A stretch of DNA of 64,000 nt. It comes from Microlunatus flavus. Its GTDB lineage: Bacteria > Actinomycetota > Actinomycetes > Propionibacteriales > Propionibacteriaceae. Of this stretch, positions 1,007 through 62,401 are shown one piece after another. The notes below the pieces were generated by a model. It was given only the letters and a program-made list of their open reading frames with translations. It was not told where the DNA came from and made no database searches. The position numbers and the translations under genes are program-made. The stretch lies in the NCBI RefSeq assembly GCF_900110855.1, contig NZ_FOFA01000001.1:248001-312000 (forward strand), in the 5' to 3' direction. Every line of letters begins with the position of its first letter. Position 1 is the first letter of the stretch.

Positions 1007-1717
1007 TCAGTCCGAGCAGCAGGCGTCGGTACAGCTCGCCCCGCACCCGCAGGCGGTCGGGGTGGTTCTCCCGCTGCTGCGCAGGGCGGCGTCGGGGCTG
1101 CAGCAAGCGTCTCCACGCCAGGCCTCCACGCCCTCGCGGATCGCGACCGCGGCGATGACCAGAGCCGCGACGGGATCCGCCCAGGACCAGCCGAGGAGGC
1201 TGTTCAGGGCGAGGCCGACGAGCAGGACCGCGGAGAGGTACGTGCAGAGCAACGTCTGCTTGGAGTCGGCGACCGCCGACAGGGAACCCAGCTCGCGACC
1301 GGTCCGGCGCTGGCCGTACGACAGCAGCGGCATCACGGCGAGGCTGACCGCGGCGAGGACCAACCCGACGGTGGAGTGCTGGGCCCCCCCGGCGCCGAGC
1401 AGGGACCGGAGGGCGTCGACGGTGACGAAGGCGGCGAGGCCGAAGAAGGAGAACGCGATGATGCGCAACGCGGTCTTCTCCCTGGCCTCCGGGTCCCGTC
1501 CGGCGAACTGCCAGGCGACGGCAGCGGCCGAGGCCACCTCGATGACGGAGTCGAGACCGAAGCCGATCAACGCGCTCGAGGAGGCGTGGCTGCCCGCCGT
1601 GATCGCGACGACGGCCTCGATCACGTTGTAGCTGATCGTCGCGGTCACGAACCACCGGATGCGCCGACCGAGAACTGCCCTGCGGGCCGGCGACGGACCA
1701 AGAGCCAGCAGTGTCAC
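1007..1717 (-). CDS. CDF-type heavy-metal cation transporter with Cys-rich tail
   Basis: A 236-residue membrane protein with about five or six hydrophobic helices. TM2 carries GFGLDSVIEVASA and TM5 ADSKQTLL, matching the metal-site regions of cation diffusion facilitators, which export divalent metals in exchange for protons. The C-terminus is unusual. It holds an early pair (GDACCS) and ends CGCGASCTDACCSD, eight cysteines in about 35 residues, suggesting thiol capture of a soft metal such as Cd, Pb or Zn. The GTG start at 1717 overlaps the stop of the upstream metal sensor (GTGA), so the two are translationally coupled. The metal is inferred from the partner regulator. Confidence 0.85.
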   Translation of the reverse strand: MTLLALGPSPARRAVLGRRIRWFVTATISYNVIEAVVAITAGSHASSSALIGFGLDSVIEVASAAAVAWQFAGRDPEAREKTALRIIAFSFFGLAAFVTVDALRSLLGAGGAQHSTVGLVLAAVSLAVMPLLSYGQRRTGRELGSLSAVADSKQTLLCTYLSAVLLVGLALNSLLGWSWADPVAALVIAAVAIREGVEAWRGDACCSPDAALRSSGRTTPTACGCGASCTDACCSD

Positions 1718-2121
1718 ACCCGCACACCCTCCGTCGGAGCCGACGCCGTCGACACCATCACCCCATCCGCTGACGACGCGGTGGCGCCGTCGGCGTCCTC
1801 GCCGCCGCAGCAGGCCGGATCGACCACCAGGACGACGTCGAGCAGATCATCGAGCGCGTGACCGAGTCGCGCGTCCGTCAGCTCGTAGCGGGTCCGGCGC
1901 CCGTCAGGCCTGGCCACGACCAGGCCGCAGCCGCGCAGGCAGCCCAGATGGTTCGACATCGCCTGACGCGAGACCCCGATCCGGTCGGCGAGATCGGCGG
2001 GATAGGCCGGGCCGTCGCGCAGCGTCAGCAGCACCCGCGCGCGAGTCGGGTCGGACAAGGCGTGGCCGAACCGAGCCAGCGCGTCGGTCGGCGACGAGAT
2101 CAGCACGGTCGGACGATACAC
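1714..2121 (-). CDS. ArsR/SmtB-family metal sensor, CmtR-like
   Basis: A 135-residue winged-helix repressor. The recognition helix lies around residues 48-60 (SRQAMSNHLG). It is followed by C61-x3-C65, and a CC pair sits at 104-105 after DPA. That arrangement matches M. tuberculosis CmtR, which binds Cd and Pb through C57, C61 and C102. CmtR-type sensors bind the operator when apo and release it with metal. The C-terminal 30 residues are an unstructured Ser/Ala-rich extension. Coupling to the CDF exporter makes a self-contained resistance operon. The GTG start at 2121 lies inside the putative operator, so leaderless transcription is likely. Confidence 0.87.
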   Translation of the reverse strand: MYRPTVLISSPTDALARFGHALSDPTRARVLLTLRDGPAYPADLADRIGVSRQAMSNHLGCLRGCGLVVARPDGRRTRYELTDARLGHALDDLLDVVLVVDPACCGGEDADGATASSADGVMVSTASAPTEGVRV

Positions 2122-2133
2122 GCCTTCATGTAT
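2116..2133 (-). promoter_or_regulatory. candidate operator/promoter of the metal-sensor operon
   Basis: The inverted half-sites ATACA (2116-2120) and TGTAT (2129-2133) are 8 bp apart and straddle the GTG start. The A/T richness stands out against the GC-rich surroundings. On the minus strand GAATACAT reads as a -10 region. Autorepression by the CmtR-like protein is inferred. Confidence 0.45.
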
Positions 2134-2226
2134 TCAGGCCCACACGGCGCCAGGAGGACCTTGGGCAGCTCCCGCTGCTCTCGACGTCTCGCCCGAAACT
2201 GCCGATGACCAGGCCGGACGCTCTGG

Positions 2227-2299
2227 AGCCACCTGTCGGATTCGAACCGACGACCTACGCTTTACGAGAGCGTCGCTCTACCAACTGAGCTAAGGCGGC
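2227..2299 (-). tRNA. tRNA-Thr (anticodon CGT)
   Basis: All four stems can be folded over 73 nt. The acceptor GCCGCCT pairs with AGGTGGC (one G-U), the D arm is GCTC...GAGC, and the anticodon stem ACGCT/AGCGT has loop CTCGTAA. The T arm is GTCGG-TTCGAAT-CCGAC. Anticodon CGT decodes ACG threonine. CCA is not encoded after the discriminator T. Confidence 0.97.
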
Positions 2300-2430
2300 G
2301 TGCGGTCCGCGGGCGACGAGCGCCTCACGAACGACGGCCTACTGTACCCAACGGACGGCGCGGCGTCGAAGCGGAAGCGGCCCCTGGGACACGAGCCCGG
2401 CCGATCGGCGTGCCGCCGTGATCTGATGCG

Positions 2431-2856
2431 GTGATGGACCCCTGGCAACGGCAGGTCTCGCTCGCCCGCGCGACGATCGCCTGGAGCGTCGTCAGCACCG
2501 CCGTCGGAGCGCCCCTCGCAGCCCGCGGCGACGACTTCTGGCGGGCCTTCGGGCGGCAGCAGGTCGGCTGGGCCGCGGTCGACGTCGGCGTGGTGGTGGT
2601 CGCGGGCGCCCTGCGCAAGCGCCGGATGCGCCGCTCCGGCAACCCGTACGCCCCGACGGTCCTGCAGCGGGAGCGCCGCGTCCTGCGGCGGGTGCTGCTG
2701 GCGAACGCCGCCGCCGACGCCCTCTACGTCGCCGGCGGCGTCTGGCTGTGGCGGGCGGGCCGTGACCGACCCGCGCGGGCGGGCGCCGGGGCGGGCATCG
2801 TCGTGCAGGGCGCCTTCCTCTGCGTGCACGACACGGTGCAGGCGCTGCGCGGCTAG
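2431..2856 (+). CDS. small membrane protein of unknown function (DUF6992-like)
   Basis: A 141-residue protein starting GTG-ATG. It has about four hydrophobic stretches (near residues 18-27, 45-60, 88-107 and 120-134) separated by basic segments such as LRKRRMRRSG. The look resembles DUF6992-type bacterial membrane proteins; I cannot give a function. The stop shares a CTAG with the stop of the convergent hydrolase, so the two genes overlap by 4 bp and no terminator separates them. Confidence 0.7.
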   Translation: MMDPWQRQVSLARATIAWSVVSTAVGAPLAARGDDFWRAFGRQQVGWAAVDVGVVVVAGALRKRRMRRSGNPYAPTVLQRERRVLRRVLLANAAADALYVAGGVWLWRAGRDRPARAGAGAGIVVQGAFLCVHDTVQALRG

Positions 2857-4460
2857 CCGGAACCGCAGCGGGCGCCCTTCGCGGGCACGGTCCCGTCGTC
2901 GAAGTAGGCCTGCACCAGCCGGCGCACGCAGGCGCTCGAGCCGTACGCGGTGTGGCCCTCCCCCTCGTGCGTGACGAGGACGGCCGAGTCGAGCTGGCGG
3001 GCCATGTCGACGGCGTACTCGTACGGGGTGGCGGGGTCGCCGGTCGTCCCGACCACGACCACCGGCCGGTCGCCGACGCGGTGCAGCGTCCGCACCTTGG
3101 CCGTGGGGGCGACGGGCCACAGGGGGCAGAAGACGTCGGCCCCCGCGAACGGGCCGAGCACGGGGGCCTTGGCCACGAGCTTCGTCGCGGTCCGGTCGGC
3201 GTCGGCGACGCTCACGTCCTGGCTGTCGAGGCAGCGGATGGCGGGGAAGGCGGTCGCGATCGAGCCGTAGCGCCCGTCGCGCGAGCGCTCGTTGCCCGCG
3301 TCGGCCAGCGCGAGCAGCCCGGCGCCCTGGCCGCGTCGCGCCTGCTGCAGGGCCTCGGCGAGCCGCGGCCAGCCGTCGGTCCCGTCGTAGAGCGGGGTGA
3401 GCACCCCCGACAGGCCGAGCTGCTGGGTGAGCTCGCGGCCCCCGCTGCCCGGCAGCGGCTGGGCGTCGAGCCGGGTCAGCAGGTCCTTGATGCTCGCCAG
3501 GACGGCCGGGCGGTCGTCGCCGAGCCCGCAGCGCTGCGCGGCGCACCAGGAGCCGAAGTGGCCGAGCGCCCGCTCGAAGCCCTGCAGCTGGTTGACGTCG
3601 GAGTCGTCGCCGAGGTCGACCGCTCCGTCGAGCACCATCGCGCCGGTGTGCTCGGGGAACGTGTCGGCGTACTGCGCACCGATCTGCGTGCCGTAGGAGA
3701 AGCCGAGGTAGCTGAGCCGGGCGTCGCCGACCAGCCCGCGCAGCAGGTCGAGGTCGCGGACGGTGTCGGCGGTCGCGATGTGCTCGAGGAGCACGCCCGA
3801 CCCGGCGAGGCAGGTCCGACCGAAGTCCTCGACGGCGCTGTTCAGCCGCGAGCTCTCCTGGGCGTCGTCGGGCGAGACGTCGAGGGAGAACAGCGCGTCC
3901 AGCTGGGCGTCGGTCCCGCACCGCACCGGCGTGGAGCGCCCGACGCCGCGCGGGTCCCAGCTGGCCAGGTCGTAGTGCTCGAGGCCCTGGGTCGGGAAGC
4001 CCGCGAGCAGGTTCAGCCCGGAGCCACCCGGGCCGCCCGGGTTGATGAACAGCGTCCCGAGCCGCGGCGACGCGGTGGCCTTGATGCGCCCCATGACGAG
4101 GGTGAGCGCGCGACCGTCGGGTGCGGACCAGTCGAGCGGGGCGGCCACCGTCGCGCACTCCACGCGCTGGGTGCAGGGGTTCCAGGCGAGACGCTGCGCC
4201 GTGTAGCGGGCGACGCCGGACCCCGCCGGCGGGTCGACGATCCCCTGCGGCAGGACGGCGGGCACCGGCTCGAGGGGCCGTCCGTCCGGCGGGGTCGGGT
4301 TCACCCCGGACGGCGCCGGGCTCGAGGACGCCGGCGTCGTGCCGGCGCCGGGGGACGACCGGGGCAGCGGCAGCGGGAGGAGCCCGCTGCAGCCGGCCAG
4401 CAGCCCGACGAGCAGGAGCGCGAGCAGCGCGGCGACCGTCGGGCGTCCGGGCGGCCTCAC
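2853..4460 (-). CDS. secreted lipoprotein alpha/beta hydrolase with TAP-like C-terminal domain
   Basis: A 535-residue exported hydrolase. The N-terminus is a lipoprotein signal, VAALLALLLVGLLAGCSG, with the lipobox Cys around residue 24, then a Pro/Ser-rich linker to about 70. The catalytic region shows the oxyanion segment NPGGPGGSG, nucleophile elbow GFSYGTQ, the Asp in GTTGDPATP and the His in EGEGHTAYG. This is the layout of actinobacterial S33 peptidases of the tripeptidyl-aminopeptidase type, such as SlpD/E and mycobacterial CaeA. The GTG at 4460 overlaps the TGA of the PSP1 gene, so it is translated as its downstream partner. The natural substrate is unknown. Confidence 0.88.
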   Translation of the reverse strand: MRPPGRPTVAALLALLLVGLLAGCSGLLPLPLPRSSPGAGTTPASSSPAPSGVNPTPPDGRPLEPVPAVLPQGIVDPPAGSGVARYTAQRLAWNPCTQRVECATVAAPLDWSAPDGRALTLVMGRIKATASPRLGTLFINPGGPGGSGLNLLAGFPTQGLEHYDLASWDPRGVGRSTPVRCGTDAQLDALFSLDVSPDDAQESSRLNSAVEDFGRTCLAGSGVLLEHIATADTVRDLDLLRGLVGDARLSYLGFSYGTQIGAQYADTFPEHTGAMVLDGAVDLGDDSDVNQLQGFERALGHFGSWCAAQRCGLGDDRPAVLASIKDLLTRLDAQPLPGSGGRELTQQLGLSGVLTPLYDGTDGWPRLAEALQQARRGQGAGLLALADAGNERSRDGRYGSIATAFPAIRCLDSQDVSVADADRTATKLVAKAPVLGPFAGADVFCPLWPVAPTAKVRTLHRVGDRPVVVVGTTGDPATPYEYAVDMARQLDSAVLVTHEGEGHTAYGSSACVRRLVQAYFDDGTVPAKGARCGSG

Positions 4461-52052: not shown

Positions 52053-53393
52053 ATGTCGTCGACACGCAGGCACCACCGCTGGGCGGCACTCGCCGCCGGC
52101 GTCACCACGCTCGCCCTGGCCGTCGCCGGCTGCGGTGGCTCGAGCGGCTCGGCCGAGGGCGGCTCCAGCTCCGGCACCGGCAACGAGAAGGTCGAGCTCA
52201 CCGTCACGACCTTCGGGACGATGGGCTTCGACAAGCTCTACGCGCAGTACGAGGCCGCGCACCCGAACGTCACCATCAAGGCCTCGAACATCGACACGGG
52301 CGACAACGCGCTCACCGACTGGAAGACCAAGCAGGCCGCCGGCAGCGGGCTGCCCGACGTCCAGGCCGTCGAGGAGGGCTGGCTCGGCCAGGTGATGAAG
52401 GTGTCGAGCTCCTTCACCGACCTGCGCGAGCACGGCGCCGACGCCATCAAGGACCGCTGGGTGCCCTGGAAGCTCGCCCAGGGCACCGACCCCGAGGGCC
52501 GGATCATCGGCTACGGGACCGACATCGGCCCCGAGGGCCTCTGCTACAACCGCACCCTGTTCAAGCAGGCCGGGCTGCCGACCGACCGCGACGAGGTGGC
52601 CACGCTGTTCGGCGGCGACCAGGCCTCGTGGGCGAAGTACTTCGAGGTCGGCAAGCAGTACCACGACAAGACCGGCAAGGCCTTCTACGACCAGAGCGGC
52701 TTCGTCTGGAACGCCATGGTCAACCAGCAGCCCGTCGGCTACTACACGCCCGACGACAAGCTGAACATCGAGGGCAACGCCACCCTGCGCGGCCTGTGGG
52801 ACCAGCTCGGCACCGCCGCGTCGCAGGGCCTCTCGGCCAACCAGTCGCAGTGGGACTGGGGCAAGGGCAAGGCCTTCACCGACGGCAGCTTCGCGACCTT
52901 CGTCTGCCCGGGCTGGATGCTCGGCGTGGTCAAGGGCCAGGTGAGCTCCGGCGGCGGTGACGCCAAGACCGGCTGGGACTTCGCCGACGTGTTCCCCGGC
53001 GGCGCGGCCAACTGGGGCGGGTCGTTCCTGACCGTGCCCAAGACCTCCAAGCACCCGGCCGAGGCGGCCGCGCTCGCCGACTGGATGACCCAGCCCGCGC
53101 AGCAGGCGGCGGCGTTCGCGGCGGCCGGCGTGTTCCCGAGCGGTGTCCAGGCGCAGAGCGACCCGGGCGTCACCGGCACGAACGAGCTGTCGACCTTCTT
53201 CAACGACGCCCCGCTCGGCACCATCCTCGCCAAGCGCGCCCAGGGCGTCGTCGCGCAGCACAAGGGCCCGCAGGACTCGGTGATCCAGTCGCAGGTCTTC
53301 GGCCCAGCGATCAAGGAGATCGACAAGGGCGTCCCGGCCGCGCAGGCCTGGGACGACGCGATCAAGCTCCTGAACCAGGTCGTCAACAGCTGA
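52053..53393 (+). CDS. cebE: cellobiose/oligosaccharide ABC transporter binding lipoprotein (CebE-like)
   Basis: A 446-residue extracellular solute-binding protein. The lipoprotein signal is RRHHRWAALAAGVTTLALAVAGC with the lipidated Cys27, followed by a Gly/Ser linker. The fold shows VTTFGTMGFDKLYAQYEAAHPNVTIKAS, then PGWMLGVV and FLTVPKTSKHPAEAAALADWMT, as in family-1 carbohydrate binders such as CebE. The Shine-Dalgarno AAGGAG lies 6 nt before ATG 52053. It is the first gene of the operon, directly behind the CebR-type operators. The sugar is inferred from the operator and the beta-glucosidase. Confidence 0.87.
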   Translation: MSSTRRHHRWAALAAGVTTLALAVAGCGGSSGSAEGGSSSGTGNEKVELTVTTFGTMGFDKLYAQYEAAHPNVTIKASNIDTGDNALTDWKTKQAAGSGLPDVQAVEEGWLGQVMKVSSSFTDLREHGADAIKDRWVPWKLAQGTDPEGRIIGYGTDIGPEGLCYNRTLFKQAGLPTDRDEVATLFGGDQASWAKYFEVGKQYHDKTGKAFYDQSGFVWNAMVNQQPVGYYTPDDKLNIEGNATLRGLWDQLGTAASQGLSANQSQWDWGKGKAFTDGSFATFVCPGWMLGVVKGQVSSGGGDAKTGWDFADVFPGGAANWGGSFLTVPKTSKHPAEAAALADWMTQPAQQAAAFAAAGVFPSGVQAQSDPGVTGTNELSTFFNDAPLGTILAKRAQGVVAQHKGPQDSVIQSQVFGPAIKEIDKGVPAAQAWDDAIKLLNQVVNS

Positions 53394-53531: not shown

Positions 53532-55511
53532 ATGACCGCCACCGCCACGCTGCCCCCGGGCCGCACCGACCGACCCGCACGACCGCCGCTCACGCCCCGC
53601 CAGCGGCTCAGCCGCGCGGACGTCCGCTACTCCCCCTACCTCTACGTCGCGCCGTTCTTCGTCCTCTTCGGGCTGGTCGGCCTCTTCCCGCTCGTCTACA
53701 CGTTCGTCGTCTCGCTGAACGACTGGGACCTGCTGGGCGGGCCGGGCGACTGGATCGGCCTCGCGAACTTCCGCGCCGAGCTCGTCGACCCGCTGTTCTG
53801 GAACTCGATGCTCAACACCGTGAGCATCTTCGTGCTCTCCGCCGTCCCGCAGGTCGCCATCGCGCTGGTCCTCGCGGCCCTGCTCGACCAGCAGCTGCGG
53901 GGCAGCACGTTCTGGCGGATGAGCGTCCTGCTGCCGTACGTGGTCACGCCCGTCGCCGTCGCGCTGATCTTCTCGAGCCTGTTCGGGGAGACGTACGGGC
54001 TGATCAACAACCTGCTCGGCGCGGTCGGCGTCGACCCGGTGCAGTGGAAGCAGAGCCGCCTCGCCAGCCACCTGGCGATCGCCACGATGATCAACTGGCG
54101 CTGGACCGGCTACAACGCGCTGATCCTGCTCGCGGCCATGCAGGCCGTGCCGCGCGACCTGTACGAGTCGGCCGCCCTCGACGGCGCGTCGCCCGTGCGC
54201 CGCTTCTTCTCGATCACCATCCCGAGCATCCGCCCCACGATCATCTTCGTGGTGATCACCGCGACCATCGGCGGGCTGCAGGTCTTCACCGAGCCCAAGC
54301 TGTTCGACGCCACGAGCGCGACGCCGGGCGGCGCGTTCAGGCAGTACCAGACCACCGTGCTCTACCTGTGGGACCTGGCCTTCAACCGCGGCGACTTCGG
54401 CAAGGCCGCGGCGGTCGCCTGGATGCTGTTCATCGTGGTCGTCGCGATCGGCCTGCTGAACTTCGCGATCTCGCGCAAGATCGCCTCGGGCGATGCGCCC
54501 AGGAAGAAGCGGAAGCGCCCTTCGACAGGCTCAGGGAACGTCGTGGGCTCAGGGAACGTCGTGGGCTCAGGGGACGTCGTGGGCTCGGGGGACGTCGCGG
54601 GGCTCCGAGGTCGTCCGATGAGCGCGGCGAGCGTGCCCACCGCGGTCGCGGTGCAGCCCGTCGACGCGGTGGTCCCCCGCCGGCGCGGGCGGCTCGGCGG
54701 CGCCCGGCCCGGCTTCCTCACCTACGGCCTCCTGCTGGCCTGGTTCCTGGGCACGGCGTACCCGCTGTGGTGGTCCTTCGTCGTCGGCTCGAACGGTCCC
54801 GCGACGCTCAGCTCGACCTATCCCCCGCTGCTGCCGGGCGGGGCCTTCTGGGCCAACGCCGCCCAGGTCTTCGACACGGTCGCCTTCTGGCAGGCGATGG
54901 CCAACAGCCTGATCGTCTCCGGGATCATCACGGTCTCGGTGCTGACCTTCTCCGCGCTGGCCGGCTTCGCCTTCGCCAAGCTGCGCTTCCGCGGGCAGGG
55001 CGGGCTGATGGTCTTCGTCGTCGCCACGCTCGCCGTGCCGACCCAGCTCGGCATCATCCCGCTCTTCCTGCTGATGCGGACGTTCGGCTGGACCGGGCAC
55101 CTGGGCGCGGTGATCATCCCCACGCTGGTCACGGCGTTCGGCGTCTTCTTCATGCGGCAGTACCTGATCAGCGTCGTCCCCGACGAGCTCGTCGAGGCCG
55201 CCCGCGTGGACGGGGCGTCGACGTTCGGCACCTTCCTGCACGTCGGCCTGCCGGCGGCGCGTCCCGCGCTCGCCGTGCTCGGGCTGTTCACCTTCATGAC
55301 GGCGTGGACCGACTACCTGTGGCCGCTGCTCGTGGTCCCGCAGAACCCGACGCTGCAGGTCGCGCTCAGCCAGCTGCAGTCGGCGCGCTACGTCGACTAC
55401 CCGGTCGTGCTGACCGGCGCGGTCCTGGCGACGCTGCCGCTCCTGGTGCTTTTCGTGGTCGCCGGCAAGCAGCTGATCAGCGGCATCATGACCGGGGCGG
55501 TGAAGGGATGA
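53532..55511 (+). CDS. fused sugar ABC transporter permeases (CebF-CebG in one frame)
   Basis: A 659-residue protein joining two permeases that are normally separate. Residues about 1-325 are CebF-like with six helices and the EAA loop ESAALDGASPVRRFFSITIP. Residues about 390-659 are CebG-like with the EAA loop EAARVDGASTFGTFLHVGLP. Between them lies a linker with four six-residue repeats (GSGN/DVV), encoded by 18-bp tandem DNA repeats, and no stop codon. An in-frame ATG at 54618 (residue 363, MSAAS) has CCGAGG upstream and could restart a separate CebG. The ATG at 53532 has GAGGAGC upstream. It forms the channel for the binding protein; the ATPase (MsiK-like) is not in the window. Confidence 0.85.
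   Translation: MTATATLPPGRTDRPARPPLTPRQRLSRADVRYSPYLYVAPFFVLFGLVGLFPLVYTFVVSLNDWDLLGGPGDWIGLANFRAELVDPLFWNSMLNTVSIFVLSAVPQVAIALVLAALLDQQLRGSTFWRMSVLLPYVVTPVAVALIFSSLFGETYGLINNLLGAVGVDPVQWKQSRLASHLAIATMINWRWTGYNALILLAAMQAVPRDLYESAALDGASPVRRFFSITIPSIRPTIIFVVITATIGGLQVFTEPKLFDATSATPGGAFRQYQTTVLYLWDLAFNRGDFGKAAAVAWMLFIVVVAIGLLNFAISRKIASGDAPRKKRKRPSTGSGNVVGSGNVVGSGDVVGSGDVAGLRGRPMSAASVPTAVAVQPVDAVVPRRRGRLGGARPGFLTYGLLLAWFLGTAYPLWWSFVVGSNGPATLSSTYPPLLPGGAFWANAAQVFDTVAFWQAMANSLIVSGIITVSVLTFSALAGFAFAKLRFRGQGGLMVFVVATLAVPTQLGIIPLFLLMRTFGWTGHLGAVIIPTLVTAFGVFFMRQYLISVVPDELVEAARVDGASTFGTFLHVGLPAARPALAVLGLFTFMTAWTDYLWPLLVVPQNPTLQVALSQLQSARYVDYPVVLTGAVLATLPLLVLFVVAGKQLISGIMTGAVKG
54528..54599 (+). repeat. 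four tandem 18-bp repeats inside the permease fusion
   Basis: Units at 54528-54545, 54546-54563, 54564-54581 and 54582-54599, based on GGCTCAGGGAACGTCGTG. Units 1 and 2 are identical; 3 and 4 carry one and three or so changes. The array is preceded by CCTTCGACAGG, giving TTCGACAGGCTCAG, a motif seen in short interspersed repeats of many bacteria. As 18 bp is a whole number of codons, copy-number change keeps the fusion in frame. Confidence 0.9.
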
Positions 55512-57028
55512 GCACCACCCTGGACCCGGTCCTCGCCCTGGCTCCGGACGCACCGGCTCCGGACCCACTGGCGCAGGTCGGGCGTACGCCGTGGCCCCCC
55601 GGCTTCCTCTGGGGAGCGGCGACGTCGGCCGGCCAGATCGAGGGCGGCGCGCACGCCGACGGCCGCGAGGACTCGATCTGGGACGCGTTCGCCCGGGTGC
55701 CGGGCAACGTCGCCGGCGGCGACACCCCGGAGCGCGGCGCCGAGCACCTGGAGCGGATGCCGGACGACGTCGCGCTGCTCGGCGCGCTCGGCCTGACGGC
55801 GTACCGGTTCTCGGTCAGCTGGGCGCGGGTGCGCCCGGGCGACCGTTACCGCAACGACGCCGGGCTCGCCTTCTACGACCGCCTGGTCGACGAGCTGCTG
55901 GCCCGCGACGTCGTGCCGTTCCTCACGCTCTACCACTGGGACCTGCCGCAGGCGCTCGAGGAGCGCGGCGGCTGGACCGTGCGGGACACCGCGGAACGCT
56001 TCGTCCGCTACGTGGAGGACGTGCACGCCCGCCTCGGCGACCGGGTCGAGCACTGGACGACGTTCAACGAACCCTTCTGCTCGGCGTTCATCGGCCACGC
56101 CTCCGGCGAGCACGCGCCGGGGCGTCAGGACCCGGGCGCCGCGCTCGCCGCGCTGCACCACCAGCACCTGGCGCACGGGCTGGCGACCCGCCGGCTCCGC
56201 GAGCTCGCCCGTCCGGGCGTGCCGCTGCAGGTCGGCATCAGCCTGAACCTCACCACCGCGGTCCCCGCCGACCCCGACGACCCGGTCGACGTCGACGCGG
56301 CCCGCCGGGTGGACGCGCTGTGGAACCGGGCGTTCCTCGAGCCGGTGCTGCACGGGCGCTACCCGGCCGACTTCCTCGCCGACGTGGCCGGGCTCGGCCT
56401 GGAGGAGGTCGTCCGCCCGGGCGACCTCGAGACGATCGCCCAGCCGATCGACTTCCTGGGCGTGAACCACTACCACGACGACTGCGTCACCGGCCACCCG
56501 CAGAGCGGGCCCGGCGGGCTCCGGCCGACCGACAAGGTCACGCGCTCGCCCTTCGTCGGCAGCGAGCACGTCGGCTCCGTGACCCGCGACCTGCCGCTGA
56601 CCGAGATGGGCTGGGAGGTCCACCCGGACGGGCTGCGCGACCTGCTCGTCCGGCTCGGGCGGGAGCACCCGGGCCTGCCGCTGCACGTGACCGAGAACGG
56701 GGCCGCGTACGCCGACGTCGTCACCCCCGACGGGTGCGTCCACGACGCCCAGCGAGCCGCGTTCGTCGAGGCGCACGTCGCCGCGGTGGCCGAGGCGGTG
56801 GAGCTCGGGGCGGACGTGCGCGGCTTCTTCGCGTGGTCGCTGCTCGACAACTTCGAGTGGGCCTGGGGCTACGCGAAGCGCTTCGGGATCGTGCACGTCG
56901 ACCACGCCACGCAGCGGCGCACGGTCAAGGACAGCGGGCACCGGTTCGCGGCGCTCGTGGCCGCGGCGCGGCACGGCGACCAGCCGGCGCCGGCCGGGGC
57001 CCGTGCTCAGCCCGCACCCCTACCATGA
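55508..57028 (+). CDS. bglC: GH1 beta-glucosidase
   Basis: A 506-residue family 1 glycoside hydrolase that cleaves imported cello-oligosaccharides or other beta-glucosides. The acid/base Glu188 lies in TTFNEPF and the nucleophile Glu396 in VTENGAAY. PPGFLWGAATSAGQIEGG near the start and WSLLDNFEWAWGYAKRFG near the end form the aglycone and glycone pockets. No signal peptide, so it is intracellular as for BglC. The ATG at 55508 overlaps the permease stop (ATGA). The last 25 residues are Pro/Ala-rich and overlap the region before the regulator gene. Confidence 0.94.
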   Translation: MSTTLDPVLALAPDAPAPDPLAQVGRTPWPPGFLWGAATSAGQIEGGAHADGREDSIWDAFARVPGNVAGGDTPERGAEHLERMPDDVALLGALGLTAYRFSVSWARVRPGDRYRNDAGLAFYDRLVDELLARDVVPFLTLYHWDLPQALEERGGWTVRDTAERFVRYVEDVHARLGDRVEHWTTFNEPFCSAFIGHASGEHAPGRQDPGAALAALHHQHLAHGLATRRLRELARPGVPLQVGISLNLTTAVPADPDDPVDVDAARRVDALWNRAFLEPVLHGRYPADFLADVAGLGLEEVVRPGDLETIAQPIDFLGVNHYHDDCVTGHPQSGPGGLRPTDKVTRSPFVGSEHVGSVTRDLPLTEMGWEVHPDGLRDLLVRLGREHPGLPLHVTENGAAYADVVTPDGCVHDAQRAAFVEAHVAAVAEAVELGADVRGFFAWSLLDNFEWAWGYAKRFGIVHVDHATQRRTVKDSGHRFAALVAAARHGDQPAPAGARAQPAPLP

Positions 57029-57050
57029 GGCGCGTGAGAGCGGCAGCGCG

Positions 57051-58058
57051 ATGACCGTGGCGACCGACACCCCCACGCTCAAGATGGTCGCCGCGGCGGC
57101 CGGGGTGTCGAAGTCGACGGTCTCCCGGGTGATCAACGACTCCCCCAGCGTGACCAAGGAGGCCGTCGCGGCCGTGTCGGCCGCGATCGAGCAGCTCGGC
57201 TACACGCCCAACCGGGCGGCCCGCACGCTGGTCAGCCGGCGCACGCAGACCCTGGCGCTGGTCATCCCCGAGAACACGGCCACGTTCTTCACCGACCCGT
57301 ACTTCGCCTCGGTCATCCAGGGCGCGGCGACCCGGGTGTCGGAGACCGAGTTCACCCTGGCGCTGCTGATCGCCGGGGGCAGCGAGGACAAGGTCCGCCG
57401 CTACCTCCGCGCCGGCAGCGTCGACGGGGCCCTGGTGCTGTCGCACCACGCCGACGACCGCTCGTACTCCCACCTCGCCGGCCGGCTGCCGCTCGTCTTC
57501 GGCGGCCGCCCGATGAGCCAGGAGGGCGACCTGCCCTTCTACGTCGACGTCGACAACGTCGCCGCGGCGCAGGAGGCGACGCGCCGGCTCGTCGCCGCCG
57601 GGCGGCGTCGCATCGCCACGGTGGCGGGGCCGGCGGACATGGCCGCCGGCGTGGACCGGCTCGAGGGGTGGCGCCGCGCGCTCGCCGAGGCCGGCCAGAG
57701 CGACGACCTGGTCGAGCGCGGCGACTTCTCCCCGGCGAGCGGGGAGGCGGCCGCGCGCCGGCTGCTCGAGCGCGGCGAGCCCTTCGACGGGCTGTTCGCG
57801 GCCAGCGCCCAGCTGGCGTCCGGGGCCCTGCGCGTGCTGCGCGAGCACGGCCGGCAGGTCCCGCACGACCTCGGCCTGGTGACCGTCGACGACGACTACT
57901 TCGCGCAGGGCTCGACGCCGCCGCTCACCACCGTGCGCCAGCCGACCCTCGAGGTGGGCCGCCGGATGGCCGACGTGCTCATCGACCTCGTCATGGCTCG
58001 CGACGTCGAGCGCGTGACGATCTTCCCCACCGAGATCGTCGACCGGGGCTCGGCCTAG
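57051..58058 (+). CDS. cebR: LacI-family repressor, CebR-like
   Basis: A 335-residue regulator. Helix-turn-helix and hinge at residues 10-60 (LKMVAAAAGVSKSTVSRVINDSPSVTKEAVAAVSAAIEQLGYTPNRAARTL), then a periplasmic-binding-like effector domain with DPYFASVIQGAATRVSE and DNVAAAQEATRRLVAAGRRRIATVAGP. I choose the ATG at 57051; an upstream in-frame start at 57003 would add 16 residues and overlap the glucosidase more. It probably binds the tandem TGGGAACGTTCCCA sites 5 kb upstream and is induced by cellobiose-type sugar. Being last in the operon gives autoregulation. In Streptomyces cebR is upstream and separately transcribed. Confidence 0.87.
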   Translation: MTVATDTPTLKMVAAAAGVSKSTVSRVINDSPSVTKEAVAAVSAAIEQLGYTPNRAARTLVSRRTQTLALVIPENTATFFTDPYFASVIQGAATRVSETEFTLALLIAGGSEDKVRRYLRAGSVDGALVLSHHADDRSYSHLAGRLPLVFGGRPMSQEGDLPFYVDVDNVAAAQEATRRLVAAGRRRIATVAGPADMAAGVDRLEGWRRALAEAGQSDDLVERGDFSPASGEAAARRLLERGEPFDGLFAASAQLASGALRVLREHGRQVPHDLGLVTVDDDYFAQGSTPPLTTVRQPTLEVGRRMADVLIDLVMARDVERVTIFPTEIVDRGSA

Positions 58059-60692: not shown

Positions 60693-61154
60693 CTAGCCAG
60701 CGACGGCCGGCCGCGCTTCTCCGAAACTGCTCTCCCGCACGGCCCCCGGCGCGAACGTGCTCGGCCGCAGCCAGGCCATCGCGAAGCACGACGGCACGGG
60801 CGGCAGCGGCCCCCGCCGGCGGTACGCGGTCGGCGTCTCCCCGACGACCCGCACGAACGTCCGCGTGAACGTCCCGAGGCTCGCGAACCCGACGGCCCAG
60901 CAGACCTCGGTGACCGGGGTGGACGTCGTGCGCAGCAGGTGCATCGCCCGCTCGACCCGGCGCCGCTGCAGGTAGCGGTGCGGCGTCTCGCCGAACGTCG
61001 CCGCGAAGGTGCGGATGAAGTGGCTCGGCGAGCAGCAGGCCAGCCGGGCCAGCTCGGCGACCTCCAGGGGGCGCTCGTACGCGGCGTCCATCGCGTCGCG
61101 GGCCCGCAGCATCGCGCGGTTGCGCTCCTCGCTCGCCCGGCTCACGCGCGTCAT
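60693..61154 (-). CDS. AraC-family transcriptional regulator
   Basis: A 153-residue protein consisting of an AraC DNA-binding domain without a ligand domain. First helix-turn-helix: LEVAELARLACCSPSHFIRTFAATFGETPHRYLQRRR. Second: PVTEVCWAVGFASLGTFTRTFVRVVGETPTAYRRRG. The C-terminal 30 residues are hydrophobic and unusual. I choose the ATG at 61154. Short AraC proteins of this type are commonly paired with a VOC gene. It is divergent from the MFS gene at 61196 with only 41 bp between starts. Confidence 0.87.
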   Translation of the reverse strand: MTRVSRASEERNRAMLRARDAMDAAYERPLEVAELARLACCSPSHFIRTFAATFGETPHRYLQRRRVERAMHLLRTTSTPVTEVCWAVGFASLGTFTRTFVRVVGETPTAYRRRGPLPPVPSCFAMAWLRPSTFAPGAVRESSFGEARPAVAG

Positions 61155-61195
61155 TCTCGCTCGCCCGACGCCGCCCGGCAGGGCAGGCTGCACCG

Positions 61196-62401
61196 GTGAG
61201 CTCCGCACCCGGCGTCGTCCGGCACCTCGCCGTCGCCCAGGCCTTCTTCATCGCGGCCTCGAGCGTGGACCTCACGCTCACCGGGATCGTCGGGGCCTCG
61301 GTCGCCCCGCGCCCCGACCTGGCCACCCTGCCCTTCAGCCTGCTCTTCGTGGCCGGCGGGCTGACGACGTTCCTGGCGTCGCGGAGCATCGGCCGCTTCG
61401 GCCACCGGGCGACCTTCGTCGCGGCCGGCCTCGTGGCCGCCGGCGGCGGCACGATCTCGGCGCTGGCGATCGCGCGCGGCTCGTTCGTCCTGTTCTGCCT
61501 CGGTACGGCCGTCGTCGGCGCCTCCAACGCGACGGCCGGCTACTACCGCTACCTCGCCGCCGACACGAACCCGGCTACCCGCGCCCGCGCCGTCAGCACG
61601 GTCCTCGCCGGCGGCCTCGTCGCGGCGCTGGCCGGACCGTTCGTCGCCACCGCGCTGCGCGACGTCACCCGTACGCCGTACGTCGCCTCCTACCTGCTGG
61701 TCGCCGCCCTCGGGCTGGGCGCCGCCGCCTGGAACACGCGGCTCCGCGTCCCCGCCCCCAACCCCTCCGGCGGTCCGCACCCGAGCGTGGCGACCGCGCC
61801 GCCCCGGGCGTACGGCGTCCTGTGGCGCCAGCCGGTCCTGCTGCTCGGCACCGTGGCCGTCGTCACCGCCGCCCTCACGATGCTCGCGCTGATGACGGCC
61901 GGGCCGATCCTGGGCCTGAACGCCGGACGCACGCCCGGCCAGGCGGCCCTGGCGATCCAGCTGCACCTGGTCGGGATGTTCGCGCCGGGCTTCGTCGTGC
62001 CGCGGGTCGTCGGGCGCCTCGGCGAGCGCCGGGTCGCCGCCCTGGGGTGCGCGGTGATCGTCGTCGCCGGCCTGGCGGCCGCGGGCGGGGCCGCTCTCCC
62101 GCTCTACCTGACGGCGATGTTCGCCGTCGGGGTCGGCTGGAACCTCGCCTACTCCGGCGGCAGCGCCATGATCGCCTCGGCCTACCGCCCCTCCGAGCGC
62201 GGCCGGGTGCAGCCCGTCGCCGAGGTCCTCGGCATCGCCGCGCAGGTCGGCGGGTCGTTCGCGGCGGCGGGGTTCACGACCGAGACGAGCTGGCGGGCCC
62301 TCGGCTGGGCCACGGTCGCGGTGGCCGTCGTCGTGGGGACCCTGCTCGTGGCGCACCGCGCGCGGGTCGAACCTCCGCCGGCGGTCGACGCCCCGGCGTG
62401 A
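61196..62401 (+). CDS. MFS transporter
   Basis: A 401-residue major facilitator with 12 probable helices. The first helices read RHLAVAQAFFIAASSVDLTLTGIVGASVAP. The loop SRSIGRFGHRATF stands in for motif A and GASNATAGYYRYLAADTNPATRARAVSTVLAGG follows. It looks like a drug or metabolite exporter of the YcaD/YbjJ breadth. It starts with GTG at 61196 and runs divergent from the AraC gene, which may regulate it. Confidence 0.85.
   Translation: MSSAPGVVRHLAVAQAFFIAASSVDLTLTGIVGASVAPRPDLATLPFSLLFVAGGLTTFLASRSIGRFGHRATFVAAGLVAAGGGTISALAIARGSFVLFCLGTAVVGASNATAGYYRYLAADTNPATRARAVSTVLAGGLVAALAGPFVATALRDVTRTPYVASYLLVAALGLGAAAWNTRLRVPAPNPSGGPHPSVATAPPRAYGVLWRQPVLLLGTVAVVTAALTMLALMTAGPILGLNAGRTPGQAALAIQLHLVGMFAPGFVVPRVVGRLGERRVAALGCAVIVVAGLAAAGGAALPLYLTAMFAVGVGWNLAYSGGSAMIASAYRPSERGRVQPVAEVLGIAAQVGGSFAAAGFTTETSWRALGWATVAVAVVVGTLLVAHRARVEPPPAVDAPA

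Follow-up and report, generated by a model that had tools for sequence, protein, structure and literature searches.

Two sugar permease genes in one reading frame in Microlunatus flavus, with a repeat-encoded linker and a candidate single-base shift at their junction

Sugar importers of the CUT1 kind, e.g. those with the permease pairs MalFG, SugAB and CebFG, carry their two membrane permeases as separate subunits. In ceb systems the ATPase subunit is of the MsiK type, and its gene is located elsewhere. Permeases joined in one chain are also known: the PhnU2 model of NCBIfam (546 positions) comprises two permease domains in one frame, as does a fused CUT1 pair present in three genomes of the genus considered here (G007, G012 and G013). 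Genes for subunits of one complex may be joined by 4-nt stop/start overlaps, whose translational coupling depends on the close stop, as set out in the accessible part of PMC10666635. Two classes of interspersed repeats are also relevant to the locus described below. REP elements are short, occur in more than 100 copies and lie mainly between convergent or co-directed genes, with a minority inside genes (PMC3733652, accessible part). Rickettsia palindromic elements (about 150 bp) are found as in-frame copies inside unrelated protein genes (PMC10969869, accessible part).

We analyzed a 64,000-nt stretch of the M. flavus genome (the window) and compared it with related genomes, the closest of which (G003) is approximately 94% identical. 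The window contains an operon whose content (binding protein, permeases, GH1 beta-glucosidase and LacI-type regulator) suggests a ceb-type importer. Its components are as follows.

52053-53393, + strand: sugar-binding lipoprotein-like protein of the importer, 446 aa (PF13416, SBP_bac_8, E 6e-29; PF01547), matching G003 in a single frame
53532-55511, + strand: fused permease frame, 659 aa (open frame; PF00528 twice), matching G003 in two different frames
53532-54497, + strand: first permease half (CebF/MalF/SugA type), conserved part, end approximate (PDB matches; dN/dS)
54618-55511, + strand: second permease half (CebG/MalG/SugB type), 297 aa from an internal ATG (PF00528; dN/dS)
55508-57028, + strand: GH1 beta-glucosidase, whose start overlaps the permease stop by ATGA (PF00232, E 6.8e-136; TIGR03356)
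57003-58058, + strand: LacI-family regulator (PF00356, PF13377)

An earlier, sequence-only reading of this DNA had placed two permeases in one 659-residue frame, and our analysis agrees with this. The frame has no internal stop in the assembly, and a profile search located two PF00528 (BPD_transp_1) stretches within it, the second at residues 476-643. The best PDB matches give the order MalF-like, then MalG-like: the first half resembles structurally solved MalF and SugA chains (best stretch 34-316 against 7cad_A, and 94-315 against MalF, 2r6g_F), and the second half the SugB, AlgM2 and MalG chains. Both halves thus match the CUT1 pairs, and the operon shares with them a binding-protein gene, a GH1 gene and a LacI regulator; it differs from them in lacking the two separate permease genes, an arrangement that is usual but not strictly defining for such pairs. 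The GH1 protein scores 519 bits with TIGR03356, above the NCBI cut-off of 478.5, and its location beside the permeases is suggestive of a putative role of the importer in cellobiose or cellodextrin transport. No ATPase subunit was found among the four operon proteins scanned. Elsewhere in the window, an AraC-like regulator (60693-61208, - strand) is intact, whereas it is broken into two frames in G003.

The sequence-only reading had also assumed that these permease genes are normally separate. A scan of named genomes, from which the best 80 of 168 relatives were kept, bore this out: the genes are split in all 80, and a conserved old fusion was rejected on this basis. The same reading would have been weakened by many relatives carrying the fusion without any repeat; none of the 80 is fused, and the fusion was seen in one genome only. 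A 4-nt overlap joins the two genes in 69 of the 80 (61 ATGA and 8 GTGA). Among 20 genomes of the same genus, a whole-gene DNA match (88%) was obtained in G003 only, where both permease genes are separate; in the next closest relative (G024) they are likewise split, with ATGA. The first-gene tails are hydrophilic (length 326 to 394 aa in 79 relatives, one truncated being left out). In 62 of the 69 overlap-bearing relatives at least 30 nt of the first-gene end (median 826 nt) are open in the frame needed to enter the second gene, and such fusions therefore need only a +1 shift.

The fused CUT1 pair of G007, G012 and G013 resembles the window protein in having both permease domains in one frame, but it is a distinct paralogue, approximately 29% identical, with long linkers of its own and common to three genomes, whereas the fusion in the window is confined to one genome and has a linker made of a repeat. 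The paralogous frames (G012, L215:1159-3450; G007, L216:461-3475, + strand; G013, L217, - strand, 1430-3454 of the reversed locus) contain extra hydrophobic stretches in their linkers, and the similar CUT1 pairs of G038, G015 and G054 have a stop between the genes. Against the PhnU2 model the window protein scored 78.5 bits, far below the cut-off of 593. Both domains lie in one open frame, as in naturally fused permeases, but the fusion is not conserved across species.

The junction between the two halves contains the following features.

54521-54534, + strand: TTCGACAGGCTCAG, core of an interspersed repeat, read in frame as STGS (133 exact copies in the genome; reversed control, 0)
54528-54601, + strand: array of four 18-bp units encoding the GSGNVV/GSGDVV linker (Tandem Repeats Finder)
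54599-54602, + strand: GGGG run with the probable +1, the next GGCTC following at 19 rather than 18 nt (G003: GGG, step 18)
54606-54611, + strand: CGAGGT, weakened ribosome site of the second permease by duplex energy (G003: GGAGGT)
54618-54621, + strand: ATGA, start of the second permease and probable remnant of the old stop/start overlap (the form found in 61 of the 80 relatives, with GTGA in 8)

Tandem Repeats Finder reported 4.1 copies of an 18-bp unit (94% matches, score 120), so that the linker does consist of four such units, as the sequence-only reading had stated. That reading had also made each unit begin with the interspersed motif, which is incorrect: the motif occurs once in the window. 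The units begin with GGCTC (at 54528, 54546, 54564 and 54582), and TTCGACA precedes the first of them only. Basic residues flank the linker.

In G003, the first gene ends PSTGSGSVTGSEVAR; this TGA and the start codon of the second gene overlap as ATGA, and one repeat unit is already present in frame in its tail, ahead of the stop. The alignment with related genomes that the sequence-only reading had called for thus places the old stop within an ATGA overlap, as in G003 and most relatives. In the window this TGA (54619-54621) is out of frame; the +1 frame gives GSEVVR-stop, which corresponds to the GSEVAR-stop of G003. Counting the GGCTC at 54601, the steps between successive GGCTC starts in the window are 18, 18, 18 and 19, while G003 has a single step of 18, and the distance from the last GGCTC to the ATG is 17 nt in both. 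The window is longer by a net 61 nt, which an affine aligner distributed over gaps of 6, 49 and 6. A 6-bp addition upstream and three extra 18-bp units leave the frame unchanged. In this comparison of the two sequences, a net +1 at the junction relative to G003 is not in doubt; its placement in the G-run is inferred from the phase of the units.

The statement of the sequence-only reading that the motif belongs to an interspersed bacterial repeat was borne out by its copy number in the genome, which greatly exceeds chance. The exact core motif was found in none of the 80 fetched relative loci. A 16-base form of the repeat occurs in 14 of the 20 genus genomes, in up to 418 copies. In a sample of 296 genomes from the phylum, 7 contained it, that of the window included. 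Its copy number across the genus ranges from 0 to 418 (G004, G002, G010), and the genome of the window has no Y1_Tnp gene to explain the spread: the Y1_Tnp/RAYT transposase profile (PF01797) had 0 matches there, while the control was found in 5 of 14, and RAYT-driven spread was rejected.

Genomic context was determined, with a simple codon-score gene caller, from 100 listed places of the 133, which gave 102 copies for the consensus and 101 after de-duplication. Most of the 101 copies are intergenic (86), 11 lie inside genes and 4 straddle a gene end; the intergenic copies are located between converging (40), tandem (37) or diverging (7) genes, or at contig edges (2). One dense intergenic cluster (L192:1504-2416, spacing about 64-126 bp or more) occupies a gap of more than 1 kb between called genes. 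The repeat therefore shares with REP elements, as described in the accessible part of PMC3733652, its shortness, a copy number above 100, a mostly intergenic location and some in-gene copies; it differs in the lack of a Y1_Tnp (RAYT-type) gene in the genome. With respect to a palindromic hairpin, its typed copies fold at best modestly against shuffles (z-scores of -1.67, -0.26 and -1.17 for three full-length forms and 0.20 for the window piece).

Eight of the 11 in-gene copies are on the strand of the gene, six of them in the STGS phase. The genes affected include purH, carB and genes for an FAD/2Fe-2S dehydrogenase subunit, a UvrD-type helicase, an HGLS enzyme and a GH31 enzyme. Same-strand, in-frame copies in conserved enzyme genes are located at L004:1501-1514, L175:1543-1578, L021:1501-1514, L186:1514-1527, L193:1518 and L015:1501, and two of these loci, L015 and L193, have in-frame arrays of their own, of 24 and 21 bp, respectively. 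In the purH-type gene, the single gene compared, the repeat adds 8 residues that 13 of the 15 aligned orthologues lack and that are represented by shorter stretches in the other two (four genus members with partial matches only were left out). Array steps are divisible by 3 in 7 of 8 in-gene cases, the eight steps coming from four loci with four from one locus, against 13 of 37 intergenic and 0 of 4 mixed cases. In its in-frame presence within unrelated genes the repeat is like the Rickettsia palindromic elements, from which it differs in size, its units being tens of bases long against about 150 bp (PMC10969869, accessible part).

We propose, with a probability of roughly 0.7, that a +1 shift gave rise to the fusion once the first gene had acquired a repeat-extended tail, so that the repeat became the linker and was not the cause. 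The ancestor would have had two separate, translationally coupled permease genes with an ATGA overlap, i.e. a junction of the 4-nt coupled kind that joins subunits of one complex (PMC10666635, accessible part). By the time of the split from G003, the hydrophilic first-gene tail would already have contained an in-frame copy of the interspersed repeat, which in the lineage of the window would have gained three 18-bp units with the frame kept. A +1 in the short G-run between array and overlap would then have allowed the first frame to bypass its stop and join the second ATG, giving one open frame with a linker of Gly/Ser-rich repeat peptide. From the known topology of CUT1 permeases, the joined ends are expected to be cytoplasmic; the linker would connect two cytoplasmic ends, so the topology need not change.

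Coupling by re-initiation should have ended with the loss of termination beside the ATG. Unlike in present-day 4-nt coupled overlaps, the old stop is now out of frame, and termination-reinitiation therefore cannot occur at this site. The sequence-only reading had pointed to the internal ATG at 54618 and its fair ribosome site; both were recovered, with GAGGT ending six bases upstream. The duplex energy of this site, -7.1 kcal/mol, is weaker than the -10.7 of G003 but similar to that at the first permease start (-7.9); the site region is predicted to be no less accessible than that of G003 (unpaired fraction 0.38 in the window versus 0.17), and the local fold around the start is strong in both (-25.7 and -23.1, respectively). 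Because a usable ribosome site persists ahead of the second start, a 659-aa single-chain permease together with some free second subunit is the expected pair of products. The coexistence of fused and split forms, raised in the earlier reading, is accordingly plausible as a prediction. A structure model of the fused chain built from a 15-row alignment (pLDDT 51, pTM 0.38) was too poor to judge the pairing of the halves.

The shift may be real and yet a non-adaptive lesion: a recent frameshift on the way to loss of the importer, with a non-working fused chain and a free second subunit that has no free partner. Its confinement to one genome and a second-gene ribosome site weaker than that of G003 fit such a history, but neither half nor the neighboring operon genes contain a stop or other frame break, and the three same-genus genomes mentioned above have other CUT1 pairs joined in one frame; we regard this explanation as rather unlikely. 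The dN/dS values against G003 (0.11 for the first half, 322 codons; 0.13 for the second, 297 codons) point to purifying selection on both halves between the two species; these values span the whole time since the split from G003 and are silent on the period after the fusion.

Somewhat less probable, and in our view unlikely, is an assembly or sequencing error, in which the extra G would not exist in the cell and the organism would have two genes that overlap by ATGA, the repeat tail merely being longer. The +1 does sit in a G-run adjoining a tandem array in a 26-contig draft, and all other kept relatives are split; on the other hand, the run has just four bases, the frame is open across the whole array, and no further frame error of the window was seen. 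The last point comes from a protein-level frame test of 46 window ORFs against G003, covering 120 kb of this one relative: 38 matched in one frame, 5 gave no match and 3 matched in two frames, namely a mis-called ORF (caller artefact), a gene broken in G003 and the fusion itself. This test was used in place of a DNA-level indel listing against G003, in which 151 of 187 in-gene gaps were not multiples of 3, many of them adjacent compensating pairs that reflect local misalignment.

The sequence-only reading had attributed the fusion to the repeat itself, whose insertion or expansion at the cebF stop would have removed that stop. A repeat does lie at the junction, with three units more than in G003, but G003 has the repeat with an intact stop, and the extra units, at 18 bp each, cannot change the frame, which is shifted only by the 19-nt last step. 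For these reasons we reject the repeat as the cause of stop loss and consider this route very improbable; the +1 may, as a mixed case, have arisen in the same slippage event as the expansion. The separate ancestral genes, the linker of interspersed-repeat origin and the internal start are thus the parts of the earlier reading that stand, while its causal role for the repeat does not. Finally, an old fusion that reverted in G003 is barely credible: the operon variant is found at the nucleotide level in just two of the 20 genus genomes searched, but all 80 named relatives are split and G003 shares the 4-nt overlap with most of them.

No description of this fusion was found in titles and abstracts on fused sugar permeases, REP elements, overlap fusions or Rickettsia elements, and a search by the letters of the repeat motif returned no literature. 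Fused permeases and in-gene repeats are themselves already known; what is less usual is the order, a tail repeat first and then one base.

Should the extra base prove to be an assembly error, the locus would illustrate how easily 4-nt overlaps can make false fusions in GC-rich genomes. If the base is real, the locus would be a gene fusion whose before-state is present in a sister species, with the order tail repeat, unit gain, one base, and it would allow two causes to be told apart that resemble each other when only one genome is considered. More tentatively, and with considerable doubt on our part, 4-nt overlaps may leave co-operating subunits one base from fusion, with an in-frame repeat serving as a ready Gly/Ser-rich linker; the +1 would here have given a working single-chain sugar permease plus free second subunit, their ratio set by the two starts instead of by re-initiation. 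A real fusion would also show that coupled subunits can merge into a single chain with neither a deletion nor a new linker being required.
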